Assembly: GCA_938041955.1 (NCBI GenBank)
Contig: CALISD010000061.1
Span: forward strand, 1-64,000
DNA from: an uncultured Granulosicoccaceae bacterium
GTDB lineage: Bacteria > Pseudomonadota > Gammaproteobacteria > Granulosicoccales > Granulosicoccaceae
Direction of reading: 5' to 3'
Length of the DNA stretch: 64,000 bases
A program made the translations under genes and the position numbers. The notes under the pieces were generated by a model that had not been told where the DNA came from, did not search any database, and worked only from the letters and a program-made list of their open reading frames with translations. Below are positions 8,751 through 59,991 of the stretch, in pieces. Position 1 is the stretch's first letter; the number at the start of each line of letters is the position of its first letter.

Positions 8751-8812
8751 GCCTGGTTCACCCAATGCCAGCGCATCCCACAACCTGCTAACTACATTTG
8801 AGGAACTATCGA

Positions 8813-10012
8813 ATGCCCGGCCCGCTTAGCTCCATTCGTGTACTCGATCTTTCCAGTATGATTTCCGGCCCACTCGGCGCGATGATACTGGCCGATCAAG
8901 GTGCTGACGTTATTAAAGTTGAAAGCCCGGCGGGTGATTCTTCGCGGCATGTTGCTACACGCCGCGGCGGATTCTCCGCATCGTTTCTTAACAACAACCG
9001 CAACAAGCGATCAGTAGTACTAGACCTTAAGAAAGACGGCGCCACCGAAGCATTGCATCAATTGATTAGCACCGCAGATGTGTTAATCCAGAATTTCAGA
9101 CCGGGTGTGGTGGATCGCCTTGGCATCGGCTATGCGGCTGCCAAGGCAATCAATCCAAAAATTATCTATGTCTCTATCTGTGGCTTCGGGCAAACCGGTC
9201 CCTACGCTCACAAGCCGGTGTTCGATCCACTCGTGCAATCACTTTCGGGCTTAACTACGGTTCAGGCAGGATCAAACGATGCGCGCCCTACTCTGGTGCG
9301 AACCATTGTGCCGGACAAACTGACCGGGTTCACCGTAGCGCAAGCAGTTTCTGCAGCGTTGTTCGCTCGAGAGCGCAACGGTGTTGGTCAACATATTCAG
9401 CTCAGTATGTTAGACACTGTAGTCCACTTTCTGTGGTCGTCAGATTTGGGAGGGCATACCTTTATTGGCGATGAGTTAGAGGCAGAAACCGCACAGAGCT
9501 TTATCGACTTAATTTATGAGACAGCTGACGGCTACATCTCGGTGGCTGCGTTTCGCCGTGTAGACTGGGAAAAGCTGGCCGATGCCTGCGAGCAGCCAGT
9601 GTGGAAAACCGACAGCCGTTTCCTGACCACACCAGGGCTTGAAGAATTCAAAAATGAACGATTGCAGCTAACGCAGGATGCCTTGCGTAAACGCACCACC
9701 AGTGATTGGATCGATATACTCGATCAATACGATGTCCCCCACGCGCCTGTGTTAACGCGTGGAGAAATGATTGTGCACCCGCAGATTGAAGCTAACAATC
9801 TGGTGGTTGAACACGAACATCCTGACGCTGGCCCACTGCGCCAGACCCGACCACCGGCAATGTTTAGTGGCACGCCTACCGAATATCGTATGGGCGGTCC
9901 AAGACTGGGTGCGCACACCAATGAAGTGCTTGCAGAGGCTGGTATTGAACAAAGCAAAATTGACCAGTTGATAGAAACCGGAGCTGCACTAGGAGATCAA
10001 TACGATGCTTGA
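8813..10012 (+). CDS. Class III CoA-transferase (CaiB/BaiF family)
   Basis: A 399-aa family III CoA-transferase, moving CoA between carboxylic acids through an aspartyl-CoA intermediate. The N-terminus (LSSIRVLDLSSMISGPLGAM) and the GFGQTGPYA segment are typical, and the catalytic aspartate is probably Asp168 in VPDKLTG. The frame is open from a TTG at 8798, but the ATG at 8813 follows GAGGAA by seven bases and gives the usual N-terminus, so I chose it. The stop overlaps the next gene by 8 bases. The substrate is unknown. Confidence 0.87.
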   Translation: MPGPLSSIRVLDLSSMISGPLGAMILADQGADVIKVESPAGDSSRHVATRRGGFSASFLNNNRNKRSVVLDLKKDGATEALHQLISTADVLIQNFRPGVVDRLGIGYAAAKAINPKIIYVSICGFGQTGPYAHKPVFDPLVQSLSGLTTVQAGSNDARPTLVRTIVPDKLTGFTVAQAVSAALFARERNGVGQHIQLSMLDTVVHFLWSSDLGGHTFIGDELEAETAQSFIDLIYETADGYISVAAFRRVDWEKLADACEQPVWKTDSRFLTTPGLEEFKNERLQLTQDALRKRTTSDWIDILDQYDVPHAPVLTRGEMIVHPQIEANNLVVEHEHPDAGPLRQTRPPAMFSGTPTEYRMGGPRLGAHTNEVLAEAGIEQSKIDQLIETGAALGDQYDA

Positions 10013-10712
10013 TTTTTATTACTGGCCCACCCCCAATGGGTGGAAGGTTTCTATCCTGCTGGAGGAACTGGGTATCGACTACAACACGATCCCGGTGAAT
10101 ATCCGTGCCGGTGATCAGTTCAAACACGATTTCCTTGCCATCAGCCCGAACAACCGTATGCCTGCGATCGTCGATCACGATGTTGATGGTGAACCCATAA
10201 GCGTTTTTGAAAGCGGCAGCATCATGCTTTATCTGGCACAGAAACATAACCGCTTTATTCCAGAAGATCCGCGTGAACTGATCCGATTAAACGAGTGGTT
10301 GTTCTGGCAGGTAGGGAACCTTGGGCCTATGGCAGGTCAGCACAGCCATTTTTTCAACTATGCACAAGGCGAACATACCTACAGCGCAGAGCGATATAAA
10401 AACGAATACAACCGCTGCATAGGTGTATTGGAGCGTCGATTGGAAGGACGTGACTACTTACTCGATTCCGGTTATTCCATCGCTGACATGATTACCTGGC
10501 CGTGGATTCTGATCGCGAAGGCGATGCAGCAACCATTGGATGATTTTCCCAACGTGACTCGTTGGCGATCGGCCATTAAGGACAGGCCATCCGTGCGTCG
10601 CGGTGTAGATCTGGGAAAAGACTTAAAAGCCAATCGACCCATGACAGATGCAGAACGCAAGGTCTCATTCGGGCAAACAGCAGAAACCGCAAAAAATCAG
10701 TCAACACCGTAA
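10005..10712 (+). CDS. Glutathione S-transferase, Nu/YfcG-like
   Basis: A 235-aa cytoplasmic GST with an N-terminal thioredoxin-like domain (residues 1-85, YYWPTPNGWKVSILLEEL, ending in the FESGSIMLYLAQK helix) and an all-helical C-terminal domain containing GQHSHFFNYA. These segments are characteristic of the YfcG/YghU (Nu-class) disulfide-bond oxidoreductases. It overlaps the CoA-transferase stop by 8 bases, so the two are probably co-translated. It is not the GST nearest the demethylase reductase, but a link to that locus cannot be excluded. Confidence 0.85.
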   Translation: MLDFYYWPTPNGWKVSILLEELGIDYNTIPVNIRAGDQFKHDFLAISPNNRMPAIVDHDVDGEPISVFESGSIMLYLAQKHNRFIPEDPRELIRLNEWLFWQVGNLGPMAGQHSHFFNYAQGEHTYSAERYKNEYNRCIGVLERRLEGRDYLLDSGYSIADMITWPWILIAKAMQQPLDDFPNVTRWRSAIKDRPSVRRGVDLGKDLKANRPMTDAERKVSFGQTAETAKNQSTP

Positions 10713-10834
10713 AACCAAGATGCAGTCAAGATGCAGTAATGTGCCGGGCGTCTGCACGGCAGAACCTCTGCTCCTGCGAGCGCAAACCACGACGGACCGT
10801 TTTGATCTACGCTGACTCCTACCGCACAGCCTCC

Positions 10835-10998
10835 TAGGAGTTTGTCCGAGAACTAGGATCTACTGCGGCCGCGATATTTTGGCCAGCCATTTCGATCCTT
10901 TTCGTTAATGAAGAATGACTATTCGCCTCTAACGATCGAAATATCTGACCTTAAATCTCACACCCTCGCCACGACCCTAGCTCTCGGACAAGCTCCTA
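10835..10998. mobile_element. MITE-like element with 22-bp terminal inverted repeats
   Basis: The ends 10835-10856 and 10977-10998 are inverted copies matching at 20 of 22 positions (TAGGAG..TTGTCCGAGA..CTAG). Internal blocks also pair (CATTTCGATC near 10890 with GATCGAAATAT near 10935), so most of the 164 bases folds on itself. Both ends carry TA, as in Tc1/mariner-IS630-type insertion. There is no open frame for a transposase. It occupies most of the 425-base gap before the oxygenase genes. Confidence 0.6.
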
Positions 10999-11040
10999 TG
11001 CGTCATTACATCAATATATCGCTAAGTTCGGTTCATCCTG

Positions 11041-11137: not shown

Positions 11138-12007
11138 ATGAGCAGCACCTGCACTAACCTCTGCGATGACCTGGTGATACTGAATCAATGGCACGCCATT
11201 GCAGCCATTGAAGACACAAGCTCGGCCCCATCTCACACTCGCTTACTGGGTGAACAATTAACCTATTGTATCGTCGATGAAACTGTGCGCGTGTGCCGAT
11301 CTGACGCTGACACGCTGCCATTGCCTGTCACCTGCGCTTACGGGTATATCTGGACTTGTCTCGGTACACCGTTGCCTTTATTCGAGCTCCCAGAATACCT
11401 GGAGTCCGACCGCACCAATGTATGTGCCGCCAGTATCGGGGTGCGAGTATCCGCCCCGCGTGCAGTAGAGAATTTCCTCGATATGGGGCATTTCCCCTAC
11501 GTGCACACTGGCATTCTAGGTGAGCAACCTCACACGGAAGTGAGAGAATATGACGTCGAAGTGACCGAAGACACCAATGAAGTCATTGCAACCCGTTGCC
11601 GCTTCTACCAACCGCAGGCGGCAGCTGGTGCAGAAGGGGGAATGCTGGTCGAATACGTCTATCGTGTGCCCCACCCTTATTGTTCGGTGCTGTATAAATC
11701 CTGTCCTGACGATGAGTCACGCATGGATGTCATTGCGCTTTTTGTGCAACCGATGGATGAAATCAATGTTCGCGCTCATGCGTTGGTCAGTGTTATCGAT
11801 AAAAACAGCGCGCCTATTGCGATTCGTATGTTCCAGCAAACCATATTCGGACAAGACAAGCCGATTCTGGAAAACCAACTACCAAAGAAACTGCCCCTCG
11901 ACCCGCGCGCAGAAACACCAATCAGAGCAGATAAATCCGCCATTGTTTATCGGCGCTGGCTCAGCAAACAGGGCATTCGATACGGTGTGATACCGGCAGC
12001 TGCATAG
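11138..12007 (+). CDS. ndmC: Rieske-less mononuclear iron oxygenase subunit (NdmC-like)
   Basis: A 289-aa protein that aligns by motif with the catalytic half of vanillate demethylase-type Rieske oxygenases. The iron motif D-x2-H-x4-H is present (Asp115, His118, His123 in ENFLDMGHFPYVH). The N-terminus starts like a Rieske oxygenase (LNQWHAIAAIED) but the CxH...CxxH cluster is absent; about 45 residues run straight to AYGYIWTCLG. Known NdmC, the 7-methylxanthine N7-demethylase of caffeine-degrading pseudomonads, has this arrangement and borrows electrons from NdmD. The next gene starts three bases downstream and supplies the missing Rieske domain. The purine substrate is inferred from context. 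Confidence 0.78.
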   Translation: MSSTCTNLCDDLVILNQWHAIAAIEDTSSAPSHTRLLGEQLTYCIVDETVRVCRSDADTLPLPVTCAYGYIWTCLGTPLPLFELPEYLESDRTNVCAASIGVRVSAPRAVENFLDMGHFPYVHTGILGEQPHTEVREYDVEVTEDTNEVIATRCRFYQPQAAAGAEGGMLVEYVYRVPHPYCSVLYKSCPDDESRMDVIALFVQPMDEINVRAHALVSVIDKNSAPIAIRMFQQTIFGQDKPILENQLPKKLPLDPRAETPIRADKSAIVYRRWLSKQGIRYGVIPAAA

Positions 12008-12010
12008 AAC

Positions 12011-13768
12011 ATGAATCTTCAACTAGCTAAACAACAGTGGCAGCCGATTGCCGCAAGCACCGATTTGATACCACGGCATGTTTTCCACGCCCAACTATTC
12101 GGTCGTGAGCTTGCTGTATGGCGAGCCGATGACGGGCATGTAAACGCCTGGGAGAACCGTTGCCTGCATCGCGGGGTCAGACTATCCATAGGGATTAACG
12201 ATGGTCGCGAGCTTGTTTGTCAGTACCATGGCTGGCGTTACGCCAACAGGACCGCCGGTTGCACCTATATACCTGCACACCCTGCTGATGCACCGGCACG
12301 CACTATTTGCAACAACCAATATCCGGTAATAGAAAAGGACGGTCTTATCTGGAGCTGCATGGCCGATGATCAGCCGGAATATTCATCCACCGGTTTTCTA
12401 TCTGGCGAAAAACTGGTGCTTCGTTCCATACCAGTCAACGCAACAGTTGACGTGCTTCTGGAGCAACTCACAGATCACGCAGACAACCGTGACAACATTA
12501 ATCTGCAATCAACAAATCCACATGCCACTCATGTATCACTGTCGATCAATGACCAACACGATAATCATCAAATCGATTTCTTTCTACAACCGGTTGACAG
12601 CCACCGTACTGTGATCAGAGCAATATTGTCTGGTGTGCAGAGCAACACGAATGAATCGGACAAACTGCATAATCTGTACAGGTACAACACAACATTGACC
12701 GAAATCCGTGAGCTTGCAGAAAATGAAATGCAGCGGCTGGAAACACCCGAACCTTGGGAAGTTGTGATAAAGCCTGTTTCAGAGTTATTGGCCCACATGC
12801 CCGAGGCATCCAACAGAGCGAATGGATTGTTGCGGGTTAAAGTAGCGTCAACTGATAACACTGCCACCGCAATAAAATCTCTTGAGTTGGTTTCAATCGA
12901 GGATCAACTACCCACCTTTCACGCTGGAGCACATATAGATGTTCACCTGCCCAACGGTCTAATTAGGCAATACTCATTAACCAATGCGCCGGGGCAGACG
13001 GATCGCTACATCATTGGTGTAAAAAGGGAATCGCACTCAAGCGGAGGATCGTCATACATTCACGACAGTCTAAAAATAGACGACGTGATCGCCATCTCTG
13101 CTCCCAGAAATAACTTCCCGTTACGGCGCGACGCTGTAAAAACCATACTGATTGCCGGCGGGATCGGCATCACTCCCCTGCTTTCCATGGCAACCGCGAT
13201 GCATCATTCAGCGCAGCCATTTCAATTGCACTATTTTGTACAAGGGGAAGACCACCAGGCATTCTCCGAAGTGCTCAGCAGGTTTGAAACATCATTGATC
13301 GTTCACACCGCGTTAGACCCCGCTGAAACACAGTCCCGACTGAACGAAATCCTGCAAGACTATCAGGACGCACATCATGTCTATGTGTGCGGCCCCGGGC
13401 CCATGTTGGATGCGACGCGATCGATCGCAGAGAAAAACCACTGGCCTGATAATTCGGTTCACTTTGAATACTTTAAAAACACTCAGACACAAGATGACAC
13501 TGTGCCGTTCACCGTATCCCTTGCGCGCTCTGGTTTGACCTTGCAAGTACCATCGGGAAGAACCCTGCTCGAAGTGCTGCGCGAGAACAATGTTGATCTG
13601 CCCTCCTCTTGCGAACAAGGCGCCTGCGGAACCTGCAGAGTGGCTGTTACCGCCGGTGAACCTCTACATCAGGATGTATACCTCAGCCACACAGAGCAGC
13701 AACGAGGCGACTGTATGATGACTTGCGTATCGCGTGCAAAAACCGATTCACTGACACTTGATATTTAG
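12011..13768 (+). CDS. ndmD: Rieske domain-reductase fusion (NdmD-like)
   Basis: A 585-aa electron-transfer protein. Residues 1-115 are a complete Rieske domain (Cys51, His53, Cys70, His73; CLH...CQYH). Residues about 125-270 resemble a degenerate piece of oxygenase catalytic domain. Residues 275-490 form a phthalate-dioxygenase-reductase-like flavin/NAD module (RQYSLTNAPG, IAGGIGITPLLSMA, YVCGPGPMLDA). Residues 500-585 are a plant-type ferredoxin (Cys534, Cys539, Cys542, Cys572). Length and order match NdmD, the shared reductase of the N-demethylase system, which carries an extra Rieske domain. It would pass NAD(P)H electrons to the upstream oxygenase. Confidence 0.85.
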   Translation: MNLQLAKQQWQPIAASTDLIPRHVFHAQLFGRELAVWRADDGHVNAWENRCLHRGVRLSIGINDGRELVCQYHGWRYANRTAGCTYIPAHPADAPARTICNNQYPVIEKDGLIWSCMADDQPEYSSTGFLSGEKLVLRSIPVNATVDVLLEQLTDHADNRDNINLQSTNPHATHVSLSINDQHDNHQIDFFLQPVDSHRTVIRAILSGVQSNTNESDKLHNLYRYNTTLTEIRELAENEMQRLETPEPWEVVIKPVSELLAHMPEASNRANGLLRVKVASTDNTATAIKSLELVSIEDQLPTFHAGAHIDVHLPNGLIRQYSLTNAPGQTDRYIIGVKRESHSSGGSSYIHDSLKIDDVIAISAPRNNFPLRRDAVKTILIAGGIGITPLLSMATAMHHSAQPFQLHYFVQGEDHQAFSEVLSRFETSLIVHTALDPAETQSRLNEILQDYQDAHHVYVCGPGPMLDATRSIAEKNHWPDNSVHFEYFKNTQTQDDTVPFTVSLARSGLTLQVPSGRTLLEVLRENNVDLPSSCEQGACGTCRVAVTAGEPLHQDVYLSHTEQQRGDCMMTCVSRAKTDSLTLDI

Positions 13769-13870
13769 CCTGCATTAGTCATGTGGCGACCCAAGACAAT
13801 TAACGATGTGCTTATTTTTATAGTGTTTAAAGGCAATAAACTATGTACAAGCAAAAAACACTCTGTCTAT

Positions 13871-13983
13871 TCGACCCCAGAGCGCACAACGCGTTACATC
13901 TCATCAGATCCGCATCGCTAGTGGCGAGCCGCGTTTGCGCGCGATCTAATGACCTGTTTAGCGTTGTGACTCTGAGTGCCGAA
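13871..13983. repeat. Long imperfect palindrome between the reductase and GST genes
   Basis: CAGAG..CACAACGC at 13878-13892 pairs with GCGTTGTGACTCTG at 13961-13974 with one small offset, and inner blocks (ACATCTCATCAGATC and the reverse of GATCTAATGACCTGTTT) continue the pairing. The 227-base gap holding it has no credible gene. It may be a small non-autonomous element or a structured RNA in the operon transcript. Confidence 0.45.
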
Positions 13984-13995
13984 TCCTCATGAATA

Positions 13996-14661
13996 ATGCA
14001 GGCTAAGCACACCTTGATTACTCTCTACGACTACGAGCTGTCCGGCAATTGCTATAAAGTACGCTTGCTATTGTCGATGCTGAATATCGAATACACAAGC
14101 CAGACAGTAGAATTTTACCCGGCACAGCAACACAAGACGTCTTGGTTTAAAAGCATCAATCCGCTGGGCACTTTGCCGGTACTGGTTGACGATGATTTAA
14201 CACTGAAAGATTCTGCCGCCATTCTTGTGTATCTTGCATCGCGCTACGATAAAAGCGAAAACTGGTATCCTGCTGGTGATGCGGCAACCCTTGCGAAAGT
14301 TACCGAGTGGCTGGCCTTCGCAGACAGCATTACCGGCTCTGCTTCACAGGCACGGCTTGCAGAAGGTTTTTTCTATCAGCTTGATGCAGAAGCCTGCCGC
14401 GCCAGTGCGCACCAGCTATTTCGCATTCTCGATGAACACCTATGGTTTGCAGAACAACAGAATCAACCATGGCTGGTATCGGGAGCTGAACCGACCATCG
14501 CTGACATCGCCTGCTTTCCCTACGTTATCTTGTCGGAAGAAGGCAGCATTATGCGGCAGGACTACCCCGCCATTCGTCGCTGGACAGATCGCATAAAACG
14601 CATCCCGGGCTTTACTGTGATGCCGGGTGTATTTCCAGCCGGCCCGGCACAGACCACATGA
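13996..14661 (+). CDS. Glutathione S-transferase-like protein (NdmE candidate)
   Basis: A 221-aa GST-fold protein with an N-terminal thioredoxin-like domain (LYDYELSGNCYKVRLLLSML, then NPLGTLPVL and the LKDSAAILVYLA helix) and a helical C-terminal domain. In the NdmCDE N7-demethylase, NdmE is a GST-like protein of similar size needed to hold NdmC and NdmD together. This gene lies directly after the reductase and before the transporter, which makes it the natural NdmE counterpart. Family membership is clear. The structural role in a demethylase complex is inference, because generic GSTs look the same. Confidence 0.75.
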   Translation: MQAKHTLITLYDYELSGNCYKVRLLLSMLNIEYTSQTVEFYPAQQHKTSWFKSINPLGTLPVLVDDDLTLKDSAAILVYLASRYDKSENWYPAGDAATLAKVTEWLAFADSITGSASQARLAEGFFYQLDAEACRASAHQLFRILDEHLWFAEQQNQPWLVSGAEPTIADIACFPYVILSEEGSIMRQDYPAIRRWTDRIKRIPGFTVMPGVFPAGPAQTT

Positions 14662-14671
14662 GCCGCTTGCT

Positions 14672-16198
14672 ATGACTGAACTACTCAAGCTCGATGGCAT
14701 CAGTAAAATCTACCCGTCGGTAGTGGCAAATGACAACATTGATCTGTCTATAGAGAAAGGTGAGATACACGCGATACTCGGCGAAAACGGTGCCGGTAAG
14801 TCAACACTAATGAAACTCATCTATGGCGTCAGTCAGCCTGACCGAGGCACTATCTATTGGCGTGGCAAAGCGGTTCAGGTTAGAAACCCGGCGCATGCGC
14901 GTGCATTAGGAATTGGCATGGTGTTTCAGCACTTCTCACTCTTTGAATCAATGACCGTTGTGCAAAACATTTCTCTTGCGGTACCTGGTTCGTTAAGTGA
15001 TTTATCAAAAGCAATCATAAAGGCAGCGGAAGGATTCGGTCTGCCTGTCTCACCTGATACATTAGTAAACTCGCTATCGGTAGGTGAACGTCAGCGCGTT
15101 GAAATTATTCGTTGCATCTTGCAGAACCCGAAACTACTGATCATGGATGAACCTACTTCCGTTTTGCCACCACAAGGGGTTGAGATGCTGTTTGACACCT
15201 TGCGCAAGCTGGCAGCAGACGGATGCAGCATTTTATACATTAGCCACAAGATGGATGAAATTCGCAGCCTCTGCGACCGGGCAACGGTACTGCGTGACGG
15301 CAAGCTGGTCGGTACGGTTAAGCCGTCAGAAGAAACATCACAGTCGCTGGCAAAATTAATGATCGGTCGGGAAATCCCGCACGCCAGCCATGAAGCAGCC
15401 ACTGAAGACGGTGAAGTAAAGCTACGTATCGAACAGGTAAATCACACCCCCAAAGATCCGTTCGGCACGCCATTGAATTCAGTGTCACTGCAGGTGCGCG
15501 CCGGAGAGATTGTTGGCATCGCGGGCGTATCCGGTAACGGTCAGAACGAACTGATGCGTATCATCTCCGGTGAAACCTTGCTAAAGCCACCATCAAACGG
15601 TCAGATAACACTCTGCGGTCAAAATACAGGCAGACTTGCACCCATGCAGCGTCGTCGATTGGGCTTTTCGTTCGTGCCTGAAGAACGGCTGGGACGCGGT
15701 GCTGTGCCCGACCTTAACCTCGGCTACAACAGCTTGCTTACCGGCCTTGAAAACGGCCTGTCCAGCATGGGTTTTATTCGTTTTGGCAAAATGAAAGCCA
15801 TGGCCGATGAGTGCATTGCCAAAAACGATGTGCGCTGTGGCGGCAATAGCGCTCGTGCAAGCAGTTTATCCGGTGGCAATCTGCAAAAATTTATTGTTGG
15901 CCGGGAGATGGCGCTGACGCCGGAAGTGCTCGTACTATCTCAGCCCACCTGGGGTGTTGATGTAGGGGCCGCGGCTGCTATTCGCGAAGCCCTAATCAAG
16001 CTACGCGATGCCGGAGTTGCCATTTTACTGGTGTCAGAAGAACTCGAGGAACTATTCGAAGTTACCGACAGAATTCATGTCATTTTTAACGGGCATCTTT
16101 CCGACAGCTTGCCAACACGCGGCACCAACGCTGAACAAATCGGCCACTGGATGACAGGGTCGTTTGTGCCCTCCACACCGGCCGCTGCCGCCTCCTGA
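14672..16198 (+). CDS. Nucleoside/purine-type ABC importer ATPase (two ABC domains)
   Basis: A 508-aa duplicated ABC ATPase of the RbsA/NupA (YufO) class. The first domain has GENGAGKST, LSVGERQRVEII and LLIMDEPTSVLPP. The second has the degenerate Walker A GVSGNGQNE, signature LSGGNLQKFIVG and a Walker B-like VLVLSQPTWGVD, as is usual in this class. The frame is open further upstream, inside the GST gene, but the ATG at 14672 is 10 bases after the GST stop and gives the family N-terminus (MTELLKLDGISKIYP). It energises the two following permeases. Confidence 0.9.
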   Translation: MTELLKLDGISKIYPSVVANDNIDLSIEKGEIHAILGENGAGKSTLMKLIYGVSQPDRGTIYWRGKAVQVRNPAHARALGIGMVFQHFSLFESMTVVQNISLAVPGSLSDLSKAIIKAAEGFGLPVSPDTLVNSLSVGERQRVEIIRCILQNPKLLIMDEPTSVLPPQGVEMLFDTLRKLAADGCSILYISHKMDEIRSLCDRATVLRDGKLVGTVKPSEETSQSLAKLMIGREIPHASHEAATEDGEVKLRIEQVNHTPKDPFGTPLNSVSLQVRAGEIVGIAGVSGNGQNELMRIISGETLLKPPSNGQITLCGQNTGRLAPMQRRRLGFSFVPEERLGRGAVPDLNLGYNSLLTGLENGLSSMGFIRFGKMKAMADECIAKNDVRCGGNSARASSLSGGNLQKFIVGREMALTPEVLVLSQPTWGVDVGAAAAIREALIKLRDAGVAILLVSEELEELFEVTDRIHVIFNGHLSDSLPTRGTNAEQIGHWMTGSFVPSTPAAAAS

Positions 16199-16200
16199 TC

Positions 16201-17310
16201 ATGAAACCCTTTCAACTCGTACCTCGCACACAACAATCACTGGCGGCACAACTGCTTGTTCCGGTAGTGTCTATCATACTCACCCTGGTGGCAGGGTCAG
16301 TGATGTTTATGCTGCTTGGCAAATCACCACCGGCAGCATTCTATGCTTTTTTTATAGAGCCTTTAACCACTCGCTATGGCATCGGCGAAGTGTTGTTAAA
16401 AATGGGGCCGTTGTTATTAATCGCACAAGGCCTTGCCATCGGTTTTCGTGCGCAGGTATGGAACATTGGCGCCGAAGGGCAACTGCTACTCGGGGCTATA
16501 GTCTCCGGAGCTATTGCACTGCAGTTTGAAACGTCAGACTCTGCATGGTTACTGCCCTCTATGGTGGTGGGCGGCACTTTAGCTGGAGCAGCATGGGCGG
16601 CGATCGCGGCATGGCTAAGAACCAGCTTTAACGCCAACGAAATTCTGGTGACGTTTATGCTATCCAGTGTGGCGTTGCAGCTTTTATATTATCTTGTTAG
16701 TGGTCCATTACGCGATCCCATGGGCATGAGTTTTCCACAGTCCGCCATGTTTGGGGATGCCGCATTATTTGAACCATTAGTCAGCGGCACTCGTGTTAAT
16801 ACCTCATTGTATTTAGCACTTGCTGTGACCATCGTGGCGTGGATATTTGTTCAACGCAGCATACCGGGCTATAAGCTTCTGGTTAGCGGCCTTGCCCCAC
16901 AAGCCGCCAGATACGCAGGTTTTTCAGAAAACAGAGCAGTATGGCTGGGCTTGCTGATAGGTGGAGCGGCGGCCGGTATGGCGGGTGTCGGAGAAGTGGC
17001 CGGACCACTGGGCTTATTGCAGCGCAACATATCACCGGGTTATGGATTCGCCGCCATCATTGTGGCCTTTCTTGGTGGGCTGCACCCGATAGGCATTTTA
17101 TTCGCAGCATTTTTTATGGCGTTAATCTATGTCGGTGGCGATATGTCACTGGTGTCGGTGGGCTTGCCCAACGCCTCGACCACTATCTTCCAGGGCATGC
17201 TGCTGGTGTTTTACCTGGCCTGCTATCTGTTTGTCAATTATCGCCTGCAACGCAGAAGTAAAAAACAACTAATAAGTGCTAGCAGTGGCAGGGAGGGATC
17301 AACACAGTGA
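16201..17310 (+). CDS. ABC importer permease 1 (NupP/YufP-like)
   Basis: A 369-aa inner-membrane protein of the branched-chain/ribose (BPD_transp_2) permease family with about ten hydrophobic segments. It has the GFRAQVWNIGAEGQLLLGAI motif that marks the larger permease of BMP-type nucleoside importers. It starts two bases after the ATPase stop and overlaps the next permease by four bases (GTGA). This type of transporter moves nucleosides or free purines in characterised bacteria; the ligand here is inferred to be a purine derivative. Confidence 0.88.
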   Translation: MKPFQLVPRTQQSLAAQLLVPVVSIILTLVAGSVMFMLLGKSPPAAFYAFFIEPLTTRYGIGEVLLKMGPLLLIAQGLAIGFRAQVWNIGAEGQLLLGAIVSGAIALQFETSDSAWLLPSMVVGGTLAGAAWAAIAAWLRTSFNANEILVTFMLSSVALQLLYYLVSGPLRDPMGMSFPQSAMFGDAALFEPLVSGTRVNTSLYLALAVTIVAWIFVQRSIPGYKLLVSGLAPQAARYAGFSENRAVWLGLLIGGAAAGMAGVGEVAGPLGLLQRNISPGYGFAAIIVAFLGGLHPIGILFAAFFMALIYVGGDMSLVSVGLPNASTTIFQGMLLVFYLACYLFVNYRLQRRSKKQLISASSGREGSTQ

Positions 17311-18230
17311 TTGATTCACTCACCTTTCTACTCGCAGGCACACTGGCTGCCGCCACCCCGCTTATATTTGCCGCCATGGGTGAATTAGTCGTTGAGAAGT
17401 CGGGCGTGCTTAACCTCAGCATAGAAGGCCTGATGGCCACTGGTGCGGCCACCGGATTCGTCGTCGCCACTGTTACCGGCTCTGCAGTAGCAGGCTTCAC
17501 CGCCGCAGCCTTCGCTTCAATGCTTTTATCGTTCGTCTTCGCAGCACTCACTCTGGGCTTTCTCGCCAACCAGGTGGCTGCCGGCTTGGCAGTCGGCATA
17601 CTGGGACTCGGTACCTCTGTGCTTATTGGCAAGCAATACGAAGGCGCTACCATCAAGCCCATTGCTAATATTGATCTTGGCTTTTTAAGTGACTTGCCCA
17701 TCATTGGTAAAACCCTGTTCGGACAAGATCCCATGGTTTACGTCGGCATAGCCTCGGTGGTACTCATCACCTGGGTCCTTAACCGAACCAAACTCGGGCT
17801 GATTATTCGTGCTGTCGGTGAATCACCGAAGGCGGCAAATTCGATTGGTTATCCGGTCATTCTGGTGCGCTTTTGTGCCATTGCTTTTGGTGGTGCCATG
17901 GCAGGTATTGGCGGCGCACACTTAACCTTGTCTTACACACCACTGTGGGCTGAGGGGCTGGTCGCCGGGCGTGGCTGGATTGTCGTGGCACTGGTCGTTT
18001 TCGGCACATGGAAAGCACCACGCATAGCACTCGGGGCCTATTTGTTTGGCGCGGTTTCCCTGCTTGAACTCTTCGTGCAGGGCCAGGGTTTTGCGATTCC
18101 TTCGCAGTTGATGTCTGCGATGCCTTATATTATTACCATCATCATTCTTGCGATCATCTCAAGAGATGCACGTATCATTAAACTCAACCACCCGGCCTCG
18201 CTGGGTGTTCCGTATACAAGCGGCGAATAA
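17307..18230 (+). CDS. ABC importer permease 2 (NupQ/YufQ-like)
   Basis: A 307-aa BPD_transp_2 permease, the smaller partner in BMP-type importers. It carries the conserved FAAMGELVVEKSGVLNLSIE start and the LIIRAVGESPKAANSIGYPV loop that contacts the ATPase. The GTG start overlaps the stop codon of permease 1. The next gene encodes the binding protein, so all four importer parts are adjacent. Confidence 0.88.
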   Translation: MIDSLTFLLAGTLAAATPLIFAAMGELVVEKSGVLNLSIEGLMATGAATGFVVATVTGSAVAGFTAAAFASMLLSFVFAALTLGFLANQVAAGLAVGILGLGTSVLIGKQYEGATIKPIANIDLGFLSDLPIIGKTLFGQDPMVYVGIASVVLITWVLNRTKLGLIIRAVGESPKAANSIGYPVILVRFCAIAFGGAMAGIGGAHLTLSYTPLWAEGLVAGRGWIVVALVVFGTWKAPRIALGAYLFGAVSLLELFVQGQGFAIPSQLMSAMPYIITIIILAIISRDARIIKLNHPASLGVPYTSGE

Positions 18231-18251
18231 TTAACCATCAGGAGACAACCA

Positions 18252-19343
18252 GTGAACTTTATGACCAGGAAAATAAAGGTGCTTTTCGGCACTATCGTAG
18301 CGTTGGCGCTACTGCCACTTTCACAGGCATTTGCTGCAGACGTACTAAAAATCGGCTACATCTACCCATCACCTGCCGGTGATGTAGGCTGGGCGCATGA
18401 ACTTGATCGCGGCAGACTCGCCATCGAAGAAGCGTTCGGCGATAAAGTTGAATCAATGGTGGTAGAAAATATCCCGGAAGGCCCGGACGCGGCGCGCATC
18501 ATGAACCAGTTTGCCGCACAAGGCGCAAAAATGATCATGCTCGGTTCATTTGGCTACATGAATGACGGATTGAAACTCGCCAAGCGATACCCGGACATTA
18601 AAATCATCCATGCCAGTGGTTACAAGCTTGCCGAGAACATGGGCAACTTCCAGACCCGCAATTACGAAAGTGCTTATCTTGCAGGCATGTCGGCAGGTCA
18701 GATAACTAAAACCAATACAGTCGGCATGGTGGCAGCCTACGCTATCCCGGAAGTGGTCGGCATCATAAACGCGTTCACCCTTGGCGCCCAGTCGGTTAAT
18801 CCTGATGCGACTATGAAGGTTGTCTGGTTAAATTCATGGTTTGACCCCAGTAAAGCACAGGAATCTGCCCGCTCTTTAATCGCTCAAAAATCTGATGTGA
18901 TTTTCTCTATTTATCAGGACACCCCGTCAGTCGTTACAGTCGCTGAAGAAGAAGGCGTTTATGTGGTTAACACAAGCTCTGACATGAAAAAATATGCCCC
19001 GACCAAGCTCCTGGTATCTATGCAAATCAGTTGGGCGGATCACTTCGTTGAGCAGACTCAGGCAGTGCTTGACGGCACTTTTAAAGGCACAGCGTTCTGG
19101 GGTGGCATGGCAGATAACGCCGTCAGCATGGAATCATGGAGCGATGATCTAAGTGCTGAGCAACTTGCAGCACTGGAAGGCAAAGTAGCCGAGATTTCAG
19201 CAGGTAAGTTCCATCCATTTACCGGACCTATCGTTAATCAGGACGGCGATGTCATGATCAAAGACGGTGAAACCATGGCAGACGGTGATCTGCTGGCGAT
19301 TAACTGGCTGGTTAAAGGCGTCGAAACCCGATTGCCCAAATAA
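18252..19343 (+). CDS. BMP-family periplasmic binding protein (PnrA/NupN-like)
   Basis: A 363-aa solute-binding protein of the basic membrane protein family, whose known members bind nucleosides or purines. A signal peptide ends near AFA (residue about 29), followed by ADVLKIGYIYPSPAGDVGWAH; the family aromatic/aspartate ligand region is present. GGAGA six bases upstream supports the GTG start at 18252 over the ATG at 18261. A strong hairpin follows the gene. The ligand is unknown, and a methylated purine would fit the neighbouring enzymes. Confidence 0.88.
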   Translation: MNFMTRKIKVLFGTIVALALLPLSQAFAADVLKIGYIYPSPAGDVGWAHELDRGRLAIEEAFGDKVESMVVENIPEGPDAARIMNQFAAQGAKMIMLGSFGYMNDGLKLAKRYPDIKIIHASGYKLAENMGNFQTRNYESAYLAGMSAGQITKTNTVGMVAAYAIPEVVGIINAFTLGAQSVNPDATMKVVWLNSWFDPSKAQESARSLIAQKSDVIFSIYQDTPSVVTVAEEEGVYVVNTSSDMKKYAPTKLLVSMQISWADHFVEQTQAVLDGTFKGTAFWGGMADNAVSMESWSDDLSAEQLAALEGKVAEISAGKFHPFTGPIVNQDGDVMIKDGETMADGDLLAINWLVKGVETRLPK

Positions 19344-19358
19344 AGGCCGACAGTACCT

Positions 19359-19388
19359 GTTACCGGAGTGTGCTAGCACTCCGGTAAC
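19359..19388 (+). other. Perfect 12-bp hairpin after the binding-protein gene
   Basis: GTTACCGGAGTG pairs perfectly with CACTCCGGTAAC around the six-base loop TGCTAG. There is no following T-run, and guaD continues on the same strand 57 bases later. It could be a partial terminator or an mRNA-stabilising structure, parallel to the one after ehuB. Confidence 0.55.
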
Positions 19389-19445
19389 AACGCCGTCAAT
19401 TCACACCGACAGATCAATGCCGCCCAACACTACATTCCAGTTGCC

Positions 19446-20822
19446 ATGAAAAACCCCGCTACACAGTATTTCTTTGGCACTTTCATGCACACACCGGCAC
19501 TGGATCAGCTTGAAATTCTACATGACACACTGATCAGCGTTGATGCCGCTGGCACTATTCTCAGCGTGGTATGCCCCGATGACCCGAGCTACCGTGAATC
19601 ACTTGATGTTGCTAAAGCACACAAGCACTTTACCTCGATAGGCGATAATGGTTTCTACCTGCCCGGCCTGGTTGACACTCATATTCACGCACCACAATGG
19701 CCACAGCTTGGCAAGGCACTTCATCTGCCATTAGAAAACTGGTTGATGGATTGCACCTTCCCGCTGGAATCCAAATATCAGGACAATGCATTTGCAACCG
19801 CTATGTATACCTCGCTGGTAGAAACCCTGTTGGCAAACGGCACCACCAGTGCGGTCTACTTTGCCACGGCACATACTCGCGCAACAGAGATACTTGCGGA
19901 GCTTTGTGTAGAAAAAGGACAGCGCGCCTGGGTGGGACGTGTCGCGATGGATGATCAACAACAATGTCCTGACTACTATCGTGATTCCTCCACTGACCAG
20001 GGACTGCGTGATTCCGACGACAGCATACGCACCATCAGGCAACTGGTCGGCAATGAGTCACAACGTGTAAAGCCAATCCTTACTCCGCGATTTATCCCAA
20101 GCTGCACCGATGAAATGCTTGCAGGCCTGGGTGAACTTGCAAAACAGCATCATTGCTCAGTTCAAACGCATTGCTCTGAGAGTGACTGGGAGCACCAATA
20201 CGTGATTGATCGCACCGGCTTGAGAGACACAGAGGCTCTGGATAAGTTCGGCTTGCTCACTCGCACCACCGTTTTGGCGCACGCCAATTTTATCAATCAC
20301 TCCGATATGTCAATTATCAAGAACAGAGGCGCGGGGGTTGCCCACTGTCCTTTATCTAATCAATACTTTGCAGGCAGTGTATTTCCACTTCGTGAAGCAT
20401 TAAACCTGGGGGTACATGTAGGCCTCGGCACAGACATTTCGGGGGGTCCCAGTGCCTCTCAGTTTGACAGCTGTCGTCATGCTATCAGTGCATCAAGGAT
20501 GCTCGAGTCAGGAGTTGATGCAAACCTCAAAGCCGATACGCGTGGAATCAAAAATGCACGGATTGACTATATAGAAGCTTTTTACCTCGCAACAACCGGC
20601 GGCGGTGTCATGCTCGATGAGCCCATTGGTATGTTCAGGAAAGGTTATGCTTTTGATGCCTTGCATATAGATACCTCAGCGATCAACAGCAATCTGTTGT
20701 TCTTCCCTGAAATTGACTCTCAGGCAGATCTGTTTCAAAAAACGCTCTACGCCGCCACTCGAACAGACATTGCTACCGTCTGGGTCAACGGCGCGGTAGC
20801 CTCAGGTCACAGGGGTAGCTGA
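19446..20822 (+). CDS. guaD: Guanine deaminase
   Basis: A 458-aa amidohydrolase that converts guanine to xanthine and ammonia. Zinc and catalytic motifs are all visible: DTHIHAPQ (His79, His81), THCSESDWEH, LAHANF and GTDISGG, and PQWPQLGKALHLPLENWL is characteristic of GuaD. It is the last plus-strand gene of the demethylase/importer group. It overlaps the convergent NUDIX gene by 16 bases at the 3' ends. It could act on guanine released by demethylation; no xanthine dehydrogenase is present in the window. Confidence 0.93.
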   Translation: MKNPATQYFFGTFMHTPALDQLEILHDTLISVDAAGTILSVVCPDDPSYRESLDVAKAHKHFTSIGDNGFYLPGLVDTHIHAPQWPQLGKALHLPLENWLMDCTFPLESKYQDNAFATAMYTSLVETLLANGTTSAVYFATAHTRATEILAELCVEKGQRAWVGRVAMDDQQQCPDYYRDSSTDQGLRDSDDSIRTIRQLVGNESQRVKPILTPRFIPSCTDEMLAGLGELAKQHHCSVQTHCSESDWEHQYVIDRTGLRDTEALDKFGLLTRTTVLAHANFINHSDMSIIKNRGAGVAHCPLSNQYFAGSVFPLREALNLGVHVGLGTDISGGPSASQFDSCRHAISASRMLESGVDANLKADTRGIKNARIDYIEAFYLATTGGGVMLDEPIGMFRKGYAFDALHIDTSAINSNLLFFPEIDSQADLFQKTLYAATRTDIATVWVNGAVASGHRGS

Positions 20823-24354: not shown

Positions 24355-26421
24355 TCAAAGTTGCAGCTCAGTGATCTCACGGCGGAACGATAGTGCATCA
24401 CCAATGTCCGGCATATCAAGTTCACGAGCGTAGCGATGGCCGGCATAGGTCGCCCATGCTATCGGGCCTGGCGCTTCGGCGTCGCCAAACGTTTTAATGC
24501 TTTTTATACCGGCATCAGCCCACTCTGATTCACGAGCCTTAAGTTCTTGCCAGACAGCATCATTAGACTGACGCGAAGTGACCAGCACAACCGCATCAGC
24601 TTCAATATACTTTGAACTACCGGTAAATGTGCAGTCACTGATGACATGATCTGCAGCGATAGACGCGACATCACGATTTAGCACAATCTCTACCCCAAGC
24701 TCTGCCAGCTGCTTGTGTATTGACGCTTGCTCAAGGGTGTTATTGGTCCACTCGGAAACATAGGCCGCCGGAGTGATTAACGTCACTTTCGCACCGGCAC
24801 GCTGCAACAGCTCAGCCAGTACGCCACCCATGTAGTAATGATCATCATCGAATACCACCACATTCCCTTTCGGGACAATGCCGTTCATTAGATCATCCGG
24901 TGTGTACAACGACATGTTTGAATCAATAGCCATTGGAACCACGTGGCGTCGAGCCACACCATCGCGCCTCCAGGTGGAGCCAGTCGCAAGCGCTACATTC
25001 TGAAAGCCGAATTCGAGTACCTGATCCGCACTGAGTTCGCTTTCAAAGTAAGTTTCAACATTAGGCTTTTGACTTAACTGATACTCGCGGTAGTCTGCGA
25101 CCCTGCCCCATGCTGACAAGCCGGGCAACTGACGCTCTTTAGCGACCCTGCCACCCAGTGTGGTAGTTGCCTCCGCCAATGCAACATCATAACCACGCAA
25201 TGCCAGTGCGCGCGCAGCCTCAAGTCCGGCAGGCCCGGCTCCCACTATCAATACATTTTCAGAAGCGCCCTTTGCCTGCATGCGTTCCGGATGCCAGCCT
25301 TTACGCCACTCTTCCATAAAGGTCGGGTTTTGTGTGCACCGTGAGATAGACATGGTCATGTCACCTGTTATGCAAATATTGCAACCGATGCACTCACGTA
25401 TGTCTTCGACACGGCCTTCATCGATTTTGTTGGGCAGAAAAGGGTCTGCAATTGATGGTCTGGCACAACCAATAAAATCAAGGTTACCTGAGTTAATTTG
25501 CTTCACCATCACATCCGGAGAGGTAAAGCGTCCAACACCTACCACCGGCTTGTCTGTCAGGGATTTAATCCCACTGACAAGATTCTGTTGCGCGGCTTCT
25601 TCAACAAAGCGCGACGGGCCCGAGCAATCTTCCCACGCGCCATGCGCCAGATCCCAAAGGTCTGGAAGATCTTTATTCATCTCAATAAAGTCTCTGACCT
25701 CTTCGTTGGAGAAACCGAGATCACCCATCTCTTCAAGAGACAGACGCAACGTGATACCCATTGTATCCCCGACGGCATCTCGAGCATCGTTAACCACTTC
25801 TTGTATAAACCTTGCTCGATTCTCAAGGCTTCCACCGTATTCATCCGTGCGTTGATTCGTTGCACGGGATAAAAAATGTTGCAGCACACCGAACCCATGC
25901 GCACCATATAAACAGATTAGATCAAACCCTGCAATTTGCGATCGTTTAAATGCATTCACAAACCAGCGGCGTAGATCTTTAATGTCTTTGCGTGTCATCG
26001 CACGGGCCTGCACCGGGTCATTAGTAAAGGTGCGAATCGGCAGCGCGGTGGGCGCCAGCGGCACTTCACGGGTATATAAGTTTGGCCCGTTGATACCGGA
26101 ATAAGCGAGTTCGATTCCGGCCAGAGCGCCATGCATTTTTGACTTCTCTGCCATCAATGCCAGTTGTGGAATGTCTTTATCTTCCCACAGGCGCAGTTCT
26201 ATGAATGGCGTGATTTCGGAACTTGGGTGAATCTCACACTGTTCGGTAAATATAACCCCCCAACCACCCTCTGCCTTAATGGCGCGCATCTCGGCAGCAG
26301 CCGACGGATCACGGTAACCCGCACCATTGCAGTGGGGCACCTGGTAAAAGCGATTTTTTGCCACCACAGGACCAATAGCCATCGGTTCAAACAGTACATC
26401 GTAGCGCGGATCGCGGACCAT
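24355..26421 (-). CDS. TMADH/DgcA-like flavin and iron-sulfur amine demethylase
   Basis: A 688-aa enzyme of the trimethylamine dehydrogenase family. Residues 1-370 are an Old Yellow Enzyme-type FMN barrel with VPHCNGAG (Cys31, at the place of the covalent flavin cysteine in TMADH). A [4Fe-4S] motif follows (CIGCNICITG, then SRC). Residues about 390-680 form an NAD/FAD-type domain (VLIVGAGPAGLEAARALALRG). Length and CTQNPTFMEEWRKGWHPE resemble dimethylglycine catabolism protein DgcA, N-methylproline demethylase and TMADH. The start at 26421 follows GAAGGGGAC. The substrate is a secondary or tertiary amine; which one is unknown. Confidence 0.82.
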   Translation of the reverse strand: MVRDPRYDVLFEPMAIGPVVAKNRFYQVPHCNGAGYRDPSAAAEMRAIKAEGGWGVIFTEQCEIHPSSEITPFIELRLWEDKDIPQLALMAEKSKMHGALAGIELAYSGINGPNLYTREVPLAPTALPIRTFTNDPVQARAMTRKDIKDLRRWFVNAFKRSQIAGFDLICLYGAHGFGVLQHFLSRATNQRTDEYGGSLENRARFIQEVVNDARDAVGDTMGITLRLSLEEMGDLGFSNEEVRDFIEMNKDLPDLWDLAHGAWEDCSGPSRFVEEAAQQNLVSGIKSLTDKPVVGVGRFTSPDVMVKQINSGNLDFIGCARPSIADPFLPNKIDEGRVEDIRECIGCNICITGDMTMSISRCTQNPTFMEEWRKGWHPERMQAKGASENVLIVGAGPAGLEAARALALRGYDVALAEATTTLGGRVAKERQLPGLSAWGRVADYREYQLSQKPNVETYFESELSADQVLEFGFQNVALATGSTWRRDGVARRHVVPMAIDSNMSLYTPDDLMNGIVPKGNVVVFDDDHYYMGGVLAELLQRAGAKVTLITPAAYVSEWTNNTLEQASIHKQLAELGVEIVLNRDVASIAADHVISDCTFTGSSKYIEADAVVLVTSRQSNDAVWQELKARESEWADAGIKSIKTFGDAEAPGPIAWATYAGHRYARELDMPDIGDALSFRREITELQL

Positions 26422-26543
26422 GGGTGTCCCCTTCTGATTGCATTGCTCATGCAACCGAGTTTACCACTCACACCAGCTGGAGACTTTGCTAAAACTTACC
26501 CTTCTCAGAACAGACATCGTACGCTGTACCAGCTCTCCGGGTT

Positions 26544-57938: not shown

Positions 57939-59627
57939 CTATTTGTTTTTCTTTACGTAACCGATAAACTCTACAACGTCATTGCTACCACAGGCAAACT
58001 CATCACTACTGAAAACCTGTGAACCATTTGAGCAGGTAAACAATGGCACTCGGTCTGCTGCTGCAAATTCGTGAACATAACCTACCGGACCGAAAGACAA
58101 CTTACCACCACAATACATATCAGTACTAACGTACGAGCTTCCAGCGGCTTTGCACTCATAGGCCATATAAGTATTTTCTTCATAGTCGCGAAGTAGAAAC
58201 CACTCGTTAACTACACCATATTCATTGCCAACCACTCTGGTTGAGGCGCGATAATCACCCGTGCTATTCGCAGAGCTGGTGAGTTTTGTATATGGAAGAT
58301 TTTCAAAACCGCAATCCAGGTTATAACGCTGGCCTTCTCGACCACTCATGTTTGCCCAGGTTTCCCATACTGGCTTGGCACTGCCATCAACACGACGCAA
58401 TCCAAAAGCTGCACCACGCTCTGCTTCATAGGTGTTGTCTTGCATGCGATGATAAACGTAGCTCTCAATACCAGGTGTGCCCAGAACATTCCGATATGAG
58501 TTACAAACAGCAATGTCCTGGTTGTATTCGTCTGACTGGCCATTTGAACTCACGCCGTTCTCTGTAAGATGTACTTCCCACGATTCCGGTTGAAAAGGAA
58601 ACTCCTGACGCAACCAACCAGACAATACACCGATGTTTCCAAATGTTACTCGTGGCAAGTCATCGAAAGAAGATACCGCACTATCCAGACGCTTATGGTA
58701 TGGGTGATACGCTACCCGCCACTTGCGGCCTTCAGCACGACTATGAACACCACGTAAAAACGTCTTTACTGAAATGATCGGGTTGCCGCCCGCCGGATCA
58801 TCAAAGTTGGTATCAAACTGATGTGCAAAAGGCACAAGTACTTTTGCTGCAGGTTGAATCGCGGTAATGCGATCATAAGCGGCATTAAAGTTGGCTGAGT
58901 AATCTGCAATCCACTTTTCTGTATCACAGGCTCTTTGCGGGCCACAATCTACTTTGTACCATTGGTTCATATTGACTTCGTTGTGAATAACAAAATCAAC
59001 AACGCGACCATGACCGTTTAATCCGTTATAGCGCTGCGCAATCATTGCTGCAAAACGTGCGTAGTCATTCGGGTCACGGGCGGCACAGAATTTACCCAGC
59101 GCTTCTGTTGTTGCAGTACAAAGGTTGTTGTCACGAGCCCATGAAGGAACACCATATAAAACTGCCGTGACGTTTTTACCCTGACCTGACCAATATTGAA
59201 TCATATGATCAAACGCCAGCTCTACAGTGAAACACTGCCCTTCAAACTTAATTTGCGACGGCGTGCAATTGGACGAAAGTGTTGGCTGCCAATTTTCCCA
59301 TACCAGATTAGCGGCAACGCCCTCCGTGCCTGCATTCAACAATTCGCTGCGATCCCAGAAATCAGTAGTAATTGATTTGATGTCGAAGCCAGTTCGCGTC
59401 GGGTAGGGAAGACTGTTACCAAGATTTACAGGCTGCGGCAGGAACTCTACTTTTCGCTCTTCCTGCACAATGTACTGACCATCCTGCATCACACTCTGGA
59501 CTTGTACCTGCGTTGCTGCCGGCACGTTATCTTGATTCTGCGACTGTAAGCCGTCAGAACCACATCCCCAAAGCAGGCTGATGCAGGAAAGTAATGAGAG
59601 GCGGAAAGTGGTGCTTTGCATTGACAA
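57939..59627 (-). CDS. Secreted lipoprotein with GH-A-type barrel (DUF5722-like)
   Basis: A 562-aa lipoprotein (lipobox Cys22) with a TIM-barrel glycoside-hydrolase-like core at residues about 75-400. The candidate acid/base is Glu217 in VIHNEVN and the candidate nucleophile Glu356 in HLTENGV, the clan GH-A arrangement. The aromatic segments WRVAYHPYHKRL and VTFGNIGVLSGWLRQEF match DUF5722. Residues about 440-562 are a cysteine-containing beta-rich tail (GPVGYVHEF). It is paralogous to the next gene. It probably cleaves an extracellular glycan, identity unknown. Confidence 0.78.
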   Translation of the reverse strand: MSMQSTTFRLSLLSCISLLWGCGSDGLQSQNQDNVPAATQVQVQSVMQDGQYIVQEERKVEFLPQPVNLGNSLPYPTRTGFDIKSITTDFWDRSELLNAGTEGVAANLVWENWQPTLSSNCTPSQIKFEGQCFTVELAFDHMIQYWSGQGKNVTAVLYGVPSWARDNNLCTATTEALGKFCAARDPNDYARFAAMIAQRYNGLNGHGRVVDFVIHNEVNMNQWYKVDCGPQRACDTEKWIADYSANFNAAYDRITAIQPAAKVLVPFAHQFDTNFDDPAGGNPIISVKTFLRGVHSRAEGRKWRVAYHPYHKRLDSAVSSFDDLPRVTFGNIGVLSGWLRQEFPFQPESWEVHLTENGVSSNGQSDEYNQDIAVCNSYRNVLGTPGIESYVYHRMQDNTYEAERGAAFGLRRVDGSAKPVWETWANMSGREGQRYNLDCGFENLPYTKLTSSANSTGDYRASTRVVGNEYGVVNEWFLLRDYEENTYMAYECKAAGSSYVSTDMYCGGKLSFGPVGYVHEFAAADRVPLFTCSNGSQVFSSDEFACGSNDVVEFIGYVKKNK

Positions 59628-59991
59628 AATCTCTGTGCCGTAACGAGCAGCGATTGTGTCAAATTTGATACAACTGTAACGAGAACTATACTACTAAATG
59701 GCCAAAACCCGCTCTATTGTGTTGTATGACTGTGAAATAGTCGTGGATAAAAGTTTGAAGCGGGTCACACCGGCGCAGCGGTATCGTTGGCGGTAGTTTC
59801 AGCCGAGGTGGGAATATGCGGGACTTGCCTGCTTGCATGCGTGCGCTGGCTAGAGTTAGCGTGACGTGGCCGCTGATATAGTATGGCTTTCGATTTTCGC
59901 GGCACTCACCTTGAGCACCGCGTCATGTCGTTACTGGCGTAAACAAGCGAACAGCATTGCGCAAATGCTGATCTACAAAGTGTACCTGCAA
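59628..59991. other. 364-base intergenic region between the GH-like paralogues
   Basis: I see no gene, repeat copy or clear hairpin here. It contains the upstream region of the 57939-59627 gene on the minus strand; no strong promoter hexamers are evident. Confidence 0.4.

Follow-up and report, generated by a model that had tools for sequence, protein, structure and literature searches.

A candidate operon for uptake and N-demethylation of methylated purine bases in a Granulosicoccaceae bacterium

Introduction

What would an NdmCDE-type demethylase do in bacteria that seldom meet caffeine? The sole characterised system of this type, the 7-methylxanthine N7-demethylase of Pseudomonas putida CBB5, comes from caffeine-degrading bacteria, and its NdmC is the only characterised member of a family of Rieske-less oxygenase subunits, with 7-methylxanthine as substrate (PMC4408171). 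Homologues are nevertheless common where caffeine is rarely met, and ndmCDE homologues of unassigned function had already been noted in Sinorhizobium and Mesorhizobium (PMC4408171, citing Summers 2013). Here we consider eight adjacent genes from an uncultured marine Granulosicoccaceae bacterium, a relative of Granulosicoccus (GenBank assembly GCA_938041955.1), lying in the first 64,000 nucleotides of contig CALISD010000061.1 (the window), which encode an NdmCDE-like set (here OxyC, RedD and GSTe), a BMP-type ABC importer and a guanine deaminase (GuaD). Probably the operon imports an N-methylpurine base and removes its N-methyl group.

Little is known about the bacterial degradation of methylated bases from RNA and damaged DNA; for Escherichia coli a route is not established, according to a 2026 paper (PMC13296781). 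Our literature searches, which left most subscription journals outside, found nothing relevant on 7-methylguanine catabolism, or on 7-methylguanine together with guanine deaminase, and no publication on the operon context, the link to formaldehyde, the variants of architecture or the unsplit relatives described below. The NdmCDE-like core as such is already known from rhizobia (PMC4408171); these other features are newly found here.

Results

An oxygenase divided between two proteins

When domains are assigned by Pfam and NCBIfam profiles, VanA_C is the sole domain found in OxyC, which has no Rieske domain. Alignment with NdmC, NdmA, NdmB and HpxD shows that the segment bearing both Rieske motifs is missing and that the start of the Rieske domain is retained. 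Residues N112, D115, H118, H123 and D240, which by analogy with Rieske oxygenases would form the catalytic and iron site, are retained and are invariant in 36 relatives. RedD combines Rieske, FAD/NAD and Fer2 domains; its CxH...CxxH Rieske ligands are intact, and its catalytic domain is shortened by a deletion that removes the iron-ligand region, histidines included. The loss is thus complementary, the Rieske cluster being gone in one protein and the iron ligands in the other, as in NdmC and NdmD. The third protein, GSTe, is a GST by Pfam.

Direct comparison with the Ndm proteins (references from a P. putida MT178 plasmid, which carries an NdmA fragment sharing 92% identity with the NdmA in the PDB) gives 43% identity between OxyC and NdmC over 279 residues, 36% between RedD and NdmD over 613 columns, and 57% between GSTe and NdmE, with GSTe reaching 63% against a Paraburkholderia caffeinilytica homologue and 65% against that of S. 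meliloti. OxyC shares 23-30% identity with NdmA, NdmB and HpxD, for the most part confined to the catalytic portion. A tree of 133 rows places all 129 Rieske-less proteins on one side and NdmA, NdmB and HpxD on the other; in a smaller tree, built with more care from the catalytic part, support for the Rieske-less group is 98/97, and its nearest neighbours (support 92/86) are full-length Rieske oxygenases of three gammaproteobacteria. Within the group, OxyC joins other Granulosicoccaceae proteins (the closest matches, from metagenome-assembled genomes, are 86% identical) and then the rhizobial "C2" proteins. Authentic NdmC occupies another place in the family, together with homologues found on plasmids of Klebsiella and P. 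putida. The set has four marks of an NdmCDE-type system: a Rieske-less subunit with intact iron ligands, a Rieske-reductase fusion, a GST-like partner gene and a position on the NdmC side of the tree; OxyC has neither the Rieske cluster of its own nor the position in the HpxD clade that would mark an HpxD. The original prediction had likened the three proteins to NdmC, NdmD and NdmE and had called for a tree of the catalytic subunits, and both the near full-length identities with their shared domain split and the placement of OxyC in the NdmC family, apart from NdmA, NdmB and HpxD, bear it out.

Structural models agree, and a remnant fold is retained in both proteins. The AlphaFold2 model of OxyC (mean pLDDT, a per-residue confidence score, of 86.8) has the folds of SxtT and GxtA as its top matches, followed by NdmA and NdmB. 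That of RedD is weaker (pLDDT 73.5, Rieske loop unmodelled) and matches phthalate dioxygenase reductase; its match to the Rieske oxygenase GxtA comes at rank 48, over 276 columns, and the model has a residual oxygenase fold at about residues 130-245. SxtT and GxtA were also the best PDB matches by sequence, because no structure of NdmC exists (that of NdmCDE is unsolved; PMC13237722); we dropped this identity, as NdmC is far closer in direct comparison than are NdmA, NdmB or HpxD, and saxitoxin chemistry is not suggested for OxyC.

A conserved eight-gene arrangement

The eight genes were predicted from the outset to lie in this order on a single strand, and each was found in its place (Table 1). 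Apart from gaps of 227 bp between RedD and GSTe and of 102 bp between the BMP protein and GuaD, spacings run from -4 to +21 bp, so a single transcript is likely; scans for promoters and terminators gave signals no higher than in shuffled sequence. CaiB-type and GST genes upstream (8798-10712) were excluded from the operon, as they are not found beside the operons of relatives.

For the genomes of relatives, open reading frames were clustered using a codon-usage filter against antisense frames in high-GC genomes; the relatives' loci are not independent, though several families are represented. Eight further Granulosicoccaceae-type loci whose flanks are long enough (L011-L014 and L016-L019) keep the whole order from OxyC to GuaD, among them that of the Bugula neritina associate AB1 (L014), and the arrangement is therefore not due to chance. 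Hyphomicrobiales usually follow another plan, in which two tandem oxygenases, RedD and GST are transcribed away from a BMP importer accompanied by a GntR gene, and rhizobia hold two to three diverged copies of OxyC for a single RedD. A BMP gene lies close by in 50 of the 77 loci that carry the GST gene.

Further variants of architecture were found. One locus (G680) is a split version in which a Rieske protein, OxyC, GST and a reductase precede an ABC protein, permeases, BMP and FrmA, and another from the window's own family (G258) has a Rieske protein, OxyC, GST, an 8-oxoguanine-deaminase-like protein and the importer. The unsplit Rieske oxygenases closest to the NdmC family (L102, L103 and L158, in genomes G224, G107 and G547) have adenosine deaminase and canonical guanine deaminase as neighbours, along with two or three BMP genes and genes for ABC importers; only the L103 cluster adds xanthine dehydrogenase. 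These clusters are possibly a second methylpurine route. As separate observations, L150 (G735:C61:131000-148000) has the importer, an 8-oxoguanine-deaminase-like protein, OxyC and a GuaD of the type found here in a row, with Rieske and GST genes on the opposite strand; at L033, L072, L079 and L085 an HpxD-related Rieske oxygenase and a separate reductase adjoin NdmCDE-like genes, at some of these loci together with adenosine deaminase and a further BMP importer; and on a Klebsiella pneumoniae plasmid from a human urine isolate (L093) an NdmA/B-like gene and an ndmCDE-like set lie between insertion sequences.

Formaldehyde genes beside homologous operons

FrmA, the class III alcohol dehydrogenase that acts as glutathione-dependent formaldehyde dehydrogenase, lies within 2.5 kb of the GST gene in 13 of the 63 loci with at least 2 kb beyond that gene, and FghA, the S-formylglutathione hydrolase, lies near it in 6. 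For instance, at L020 a BMP gene, two OxyC-type oxygenases, RedD, GST, FrmA and GuaD stand in a row, the identity of FrmA there being confirmed by TIGR02818. The link extends to gammaproteobacterial loci (L160, L161) and to betaproteobacterial plasmids (L092, L097). Such neighbours are what one would expect if formaldehyde were released.

An importer related to purine-binding proteins

The best PDB matches of the BMP protein, both over the full length, are Brucella 3s99 (E 8e-87), in which adenine was modelled, and AtzT (6pi5; E 3e-84), which binds guanine with a dissociation constant of 110 nM, adenine with 2.5 uM and other nucleobases at no better than 620 uM (PMC6834077). Over the seven positions of AtzT that contact guanine, Ser97, Phe98, Glu165 and Trp194 are kept and Trp stands for Tyr45, so that five are kept or exchanged aromatic for aromatic; unlike AtzT, the protein has Asp for N220, as in 3s99, and Tyr for N218, with an insertion of one residue (the rhizobial BMP proteins have Met there). 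Given the full-length relationship and the largely kept pocket, a purine base is the expected ligand. The NCBIfam label of a putative B6 ABC transporter (NF047927-NF047930) was dropped, as the four importer genes reach 415, 182, 174 and 63 bits against cut-offs of 670, 400, 465 and 400.

The guanine deaminase and the rest of the genome

GuaD passes TIGR02967 narrowly (393.6 bits against a cut-off of 375.4). With the GuaDs beside OxyC, RedD and GSTe in alphaproteobacteria it shares 52-54% identity, and with the canonical copy elsewhere in its own genome, which scores 562 bits, only 28%. In the alignment GuaD retains what we take to be the guanine contacts of the human enzyme, and a genuine guanine deaminase is its probable identity. 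This type of GuaD occurs in 7 of 398 genomes of the phylum, in four of them beside an NCS2 nucleobase permease and no oxygenase. OxyC relatives occur in 4 of the 6 other GuaD genomes versus 23 of 397 (Fisher p 1e-4), a co-occurrence that we downgraded to weak evidence, as two of the four have only unsplit Rieske relatives, GuaD adjoins OxyC only in G735, and NCS2 permeases neighbour it in four genomes.

The source genome, a draft of 6.18 Mb in 222 contigs, about 93% complete, encodes a xanthine dehydrogenase (XdhB, 1132 bits) as well as two copies of class III alcohol dehydrogenase (FrmA). No orthologue of NdmA, NdmB or HpxD was found in it at that level of completeness, and for want of NdmA and NdmB caffeine is an unlikely substrate, as had been thought from the start.

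Repeats and other features of the window

The gap between RedD and GSTe is filled by a 242-bp repeat resembling a miniature inverted-repeat transposable element (MITE), a detail absent from the original prediction. The repeat has 42 matches across the genome, 7 of them near-complete copies, is missing from the same junction in L010, L011 and L014, and its ends provide the stop codon of RedD and an in-frame ATG for GSTe, whose translation would start either there, at 13996, or at a TTG at 14014. Another MITE-like repeat, of 166 bp, belongs to a family of about 25 genomic copies (83-93% identity) and lies in the presumed promoter region of OxyC. Elsewhere in the window, an open reading frame at 24355-26454 on the minus strand resembles an old-yellow-enzyme oxidoreductase, and two related large secreted glycosidase-like frames are adjacent at 57939-62568 (all named by eye).

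Table 1. Genes of the operon and repeats at the locus, with positions in the window
Feature	Position	Strand	Basis
OxyC, NdmC-type Rieske-less catalytic subunit, 289 aa	11138-12007	+	VanA_C only; NdmC identity; iron ligands
RedD, NdmD-type Rieske + degenerate catalytic domain + FAD/NAD reductase + [2Fe-2S] ferredoxin, 585 aa	12011-13768	+	Pfam; NdmD identity
GSTe, NdmE-type GST-like protein	13996-14661	+	Pfam GST; NdmE identity
ABC importer ATPase, double nucleotide-binding domain, 508 aa	14672-16198	+	ABC_tran x2
ABC importer permease 1	16201-17310	+	BPD_transp_2
ABC importer permease 2	17307-18230	+	BPD_transp_2
BMP-type substrate-binding protein, predicted purine-base binder	18252-19343	+	Bmp; 3s99/6pi5 matches
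Guanine deaminase GuaD, second copy type	19446-20822	+	TIGR02967 above cut-off
MITE-like repeat, 242 bp, between RedD and GSTe, outside the pathway	13765-14006		22-nt inverted ends
MITE-like repeat, 166 bp, in the gap 5' of OxyC, outside the pathway	10834-10999		26-nt inverted ends

Discussion

The picture that emerges is one in which the BMP protein and the ABC transporter would import an N-methylated purine base, and OxyC, with the iron site, and RedD, with the Rieske cluster and NADH-dependent reductase, would be joined by GSTe in a predicted NdmCDE-like complex that hydroxylates the N-methyl group, which then leaves as formaldehyde. GuaD would turn the resulting guanine into xanthine, or deaminate the methylguanine first, and the xanthine dehydrogenase of the genome would process xanthine further. 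The reaction that we infer is thus N-demethylation. Substrates can be ranked with methylguanine first (7-methylguanine most likely), then 7-methylxanthine, then other positions; the N7 position, with 7-methylguanine as main natural substrate, is a conjecture that we hold tentatively.

Several observations weigh against this account. OxyC belongs to a group that is sister to authentic NdmC and may therefore act on a different substrate, and the conserved pocket residue Ser97 of the BMP protein might contact N7, which would disfavour an N7-methyl ligand. The importer is not nearby in many Devosia-type homologues, and the operon in the window lacks FrmA, both copies being elsewhere in the genome. 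GuaD of this type, where it stands without the oxygenase beside nucleobase permeases, may simply serve guanine. The import and demethylation first proposed for the locus gain from the importer's relatives, as regards a purine, and from the FrmA neighbours, as regards formaldehyde, whereas specificity for 7-methylguanine is put in doubt by the sister-group position, an ordinary GuaD and Ser97. The adjacent guaD had been read as a pointer to that substrate: it is conserved in the operon of the family, but looks like a normal guanine deaminase.

How probable are the alternatives? Their likelihoods, as worded here, overlap with that of purine N-demethylation where only the substrate differs, and do not sum to one. 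It is doubtful that the system acts on another N-methyl position or another heterocycle (1-, 3- or N2-methylguanine, 7,9-dimethylguanine, methylpyrimidines or s-triazine-like compounds), partly a variant of the account above. A few residues can shift position specificity in NdmA (PMC8055839), the diverged OxyC copies of rhizobia share one RedD, and the guanine contact N218 of AtzT is Tyr in the window and Met in rhizobia; against this reading, the guanine-type importer pocket is largely retained and two kinds of aminopurine deaminase recur in the cluster. A methylxanthine in place of methylguanine, from alkaloids of the caffeine, theobromine or 7-methylxanthine type, would again be a variant within purine N-demethylation, and one with precedent in the characterised NdmC (PMC4408171). 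We regard it as unlikely, though 7-methylxanthine by itself may be a substrate: multiply methylated xanthines could not be finished without NdmA or NdmB, of which the roughly 93% complete genome yielded no orthologue, and GuaD, present in this operon throughout the family, would have no role in a xanthine-only route.

Ring hydroxylation, by which a molybdenum-independent HpxDE-like purine hydroxylase would convert xanthine or guanine to a C8-oxidised product, departs further from N-demethylation. HpxDE is likewise a Rieske-type purine oxygenase with a reductase, HpxD is among the nearer relatives of OxyC, GuaD could supply the xanthine, and no FrmA was seen beside the unsplit relatives in purine clusters. 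However, HpxD retains its own Rieske cluster, is only about 27-30% identical to OxyC and belongs to a separate clade, OxyC grouping with NdmC; the recurrent FrmA and FghA neighbours indicate formaldehyde, and the genome already has XdhB. This makes hydroxylation of the ring quite improbable. We think it very unlikely that the locus is an ordinary guanine salvage operon whose oxygenase acts on an unrelated compound. The NCS2 permeases beside GuaD in four genomes, and the residues presumed to bind guanine in GuaD, would fit such a role, but oxygenase and importer are linked across bacterial classes even where GuaD is missing, and a second, canonical GuaD is present in the genome.

N-demethylation of a purine, the reading that we prefer, does not make the system a copy of a known one. 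It shares with NdmCDE the three proteins, their degenerate domains and the formaldehyde genes flanking homologous clusters, but forms its own subclade, has a BMP-type ABC importer where NdmCDE has a nucleobase symporter, and includes a guanine deaminase, in a genome where no NdmA or NdmB was found. The Sinorhizobium and Mesorhizobium homologues have the same three-gene core (about 53-65% identity) adjoining a BMP importer; theirs differ in their two tandem oxygenase subunits, a divergent importer with a GntR-type gene, and often FrmA instead of GuaD.

An operon that joins importer, demethylase and guanine deaminase offers a concrete and testable natural role for the NdmCDE family, and its binding protein may prefer methylated bases. 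The unsplit relatives and the versions with a free-standing Rieske protein help in understanding how two proteins can share the parts of a Rieske oxygenase. It is possible, though we put it forward with reserve, that the locus serves specifically to break down 7-methylguanine, or some other methylguanine, set free from RNA or damaged DNA, along a route from import through NdmCDE-type demethylation to guanine and deamination to xanthine. If so, NdmCDE of the caffeine degraders would have branched off from a widespread enzyme family that natively recycles modified nucleobases in marine and rhizosphere bacteria.

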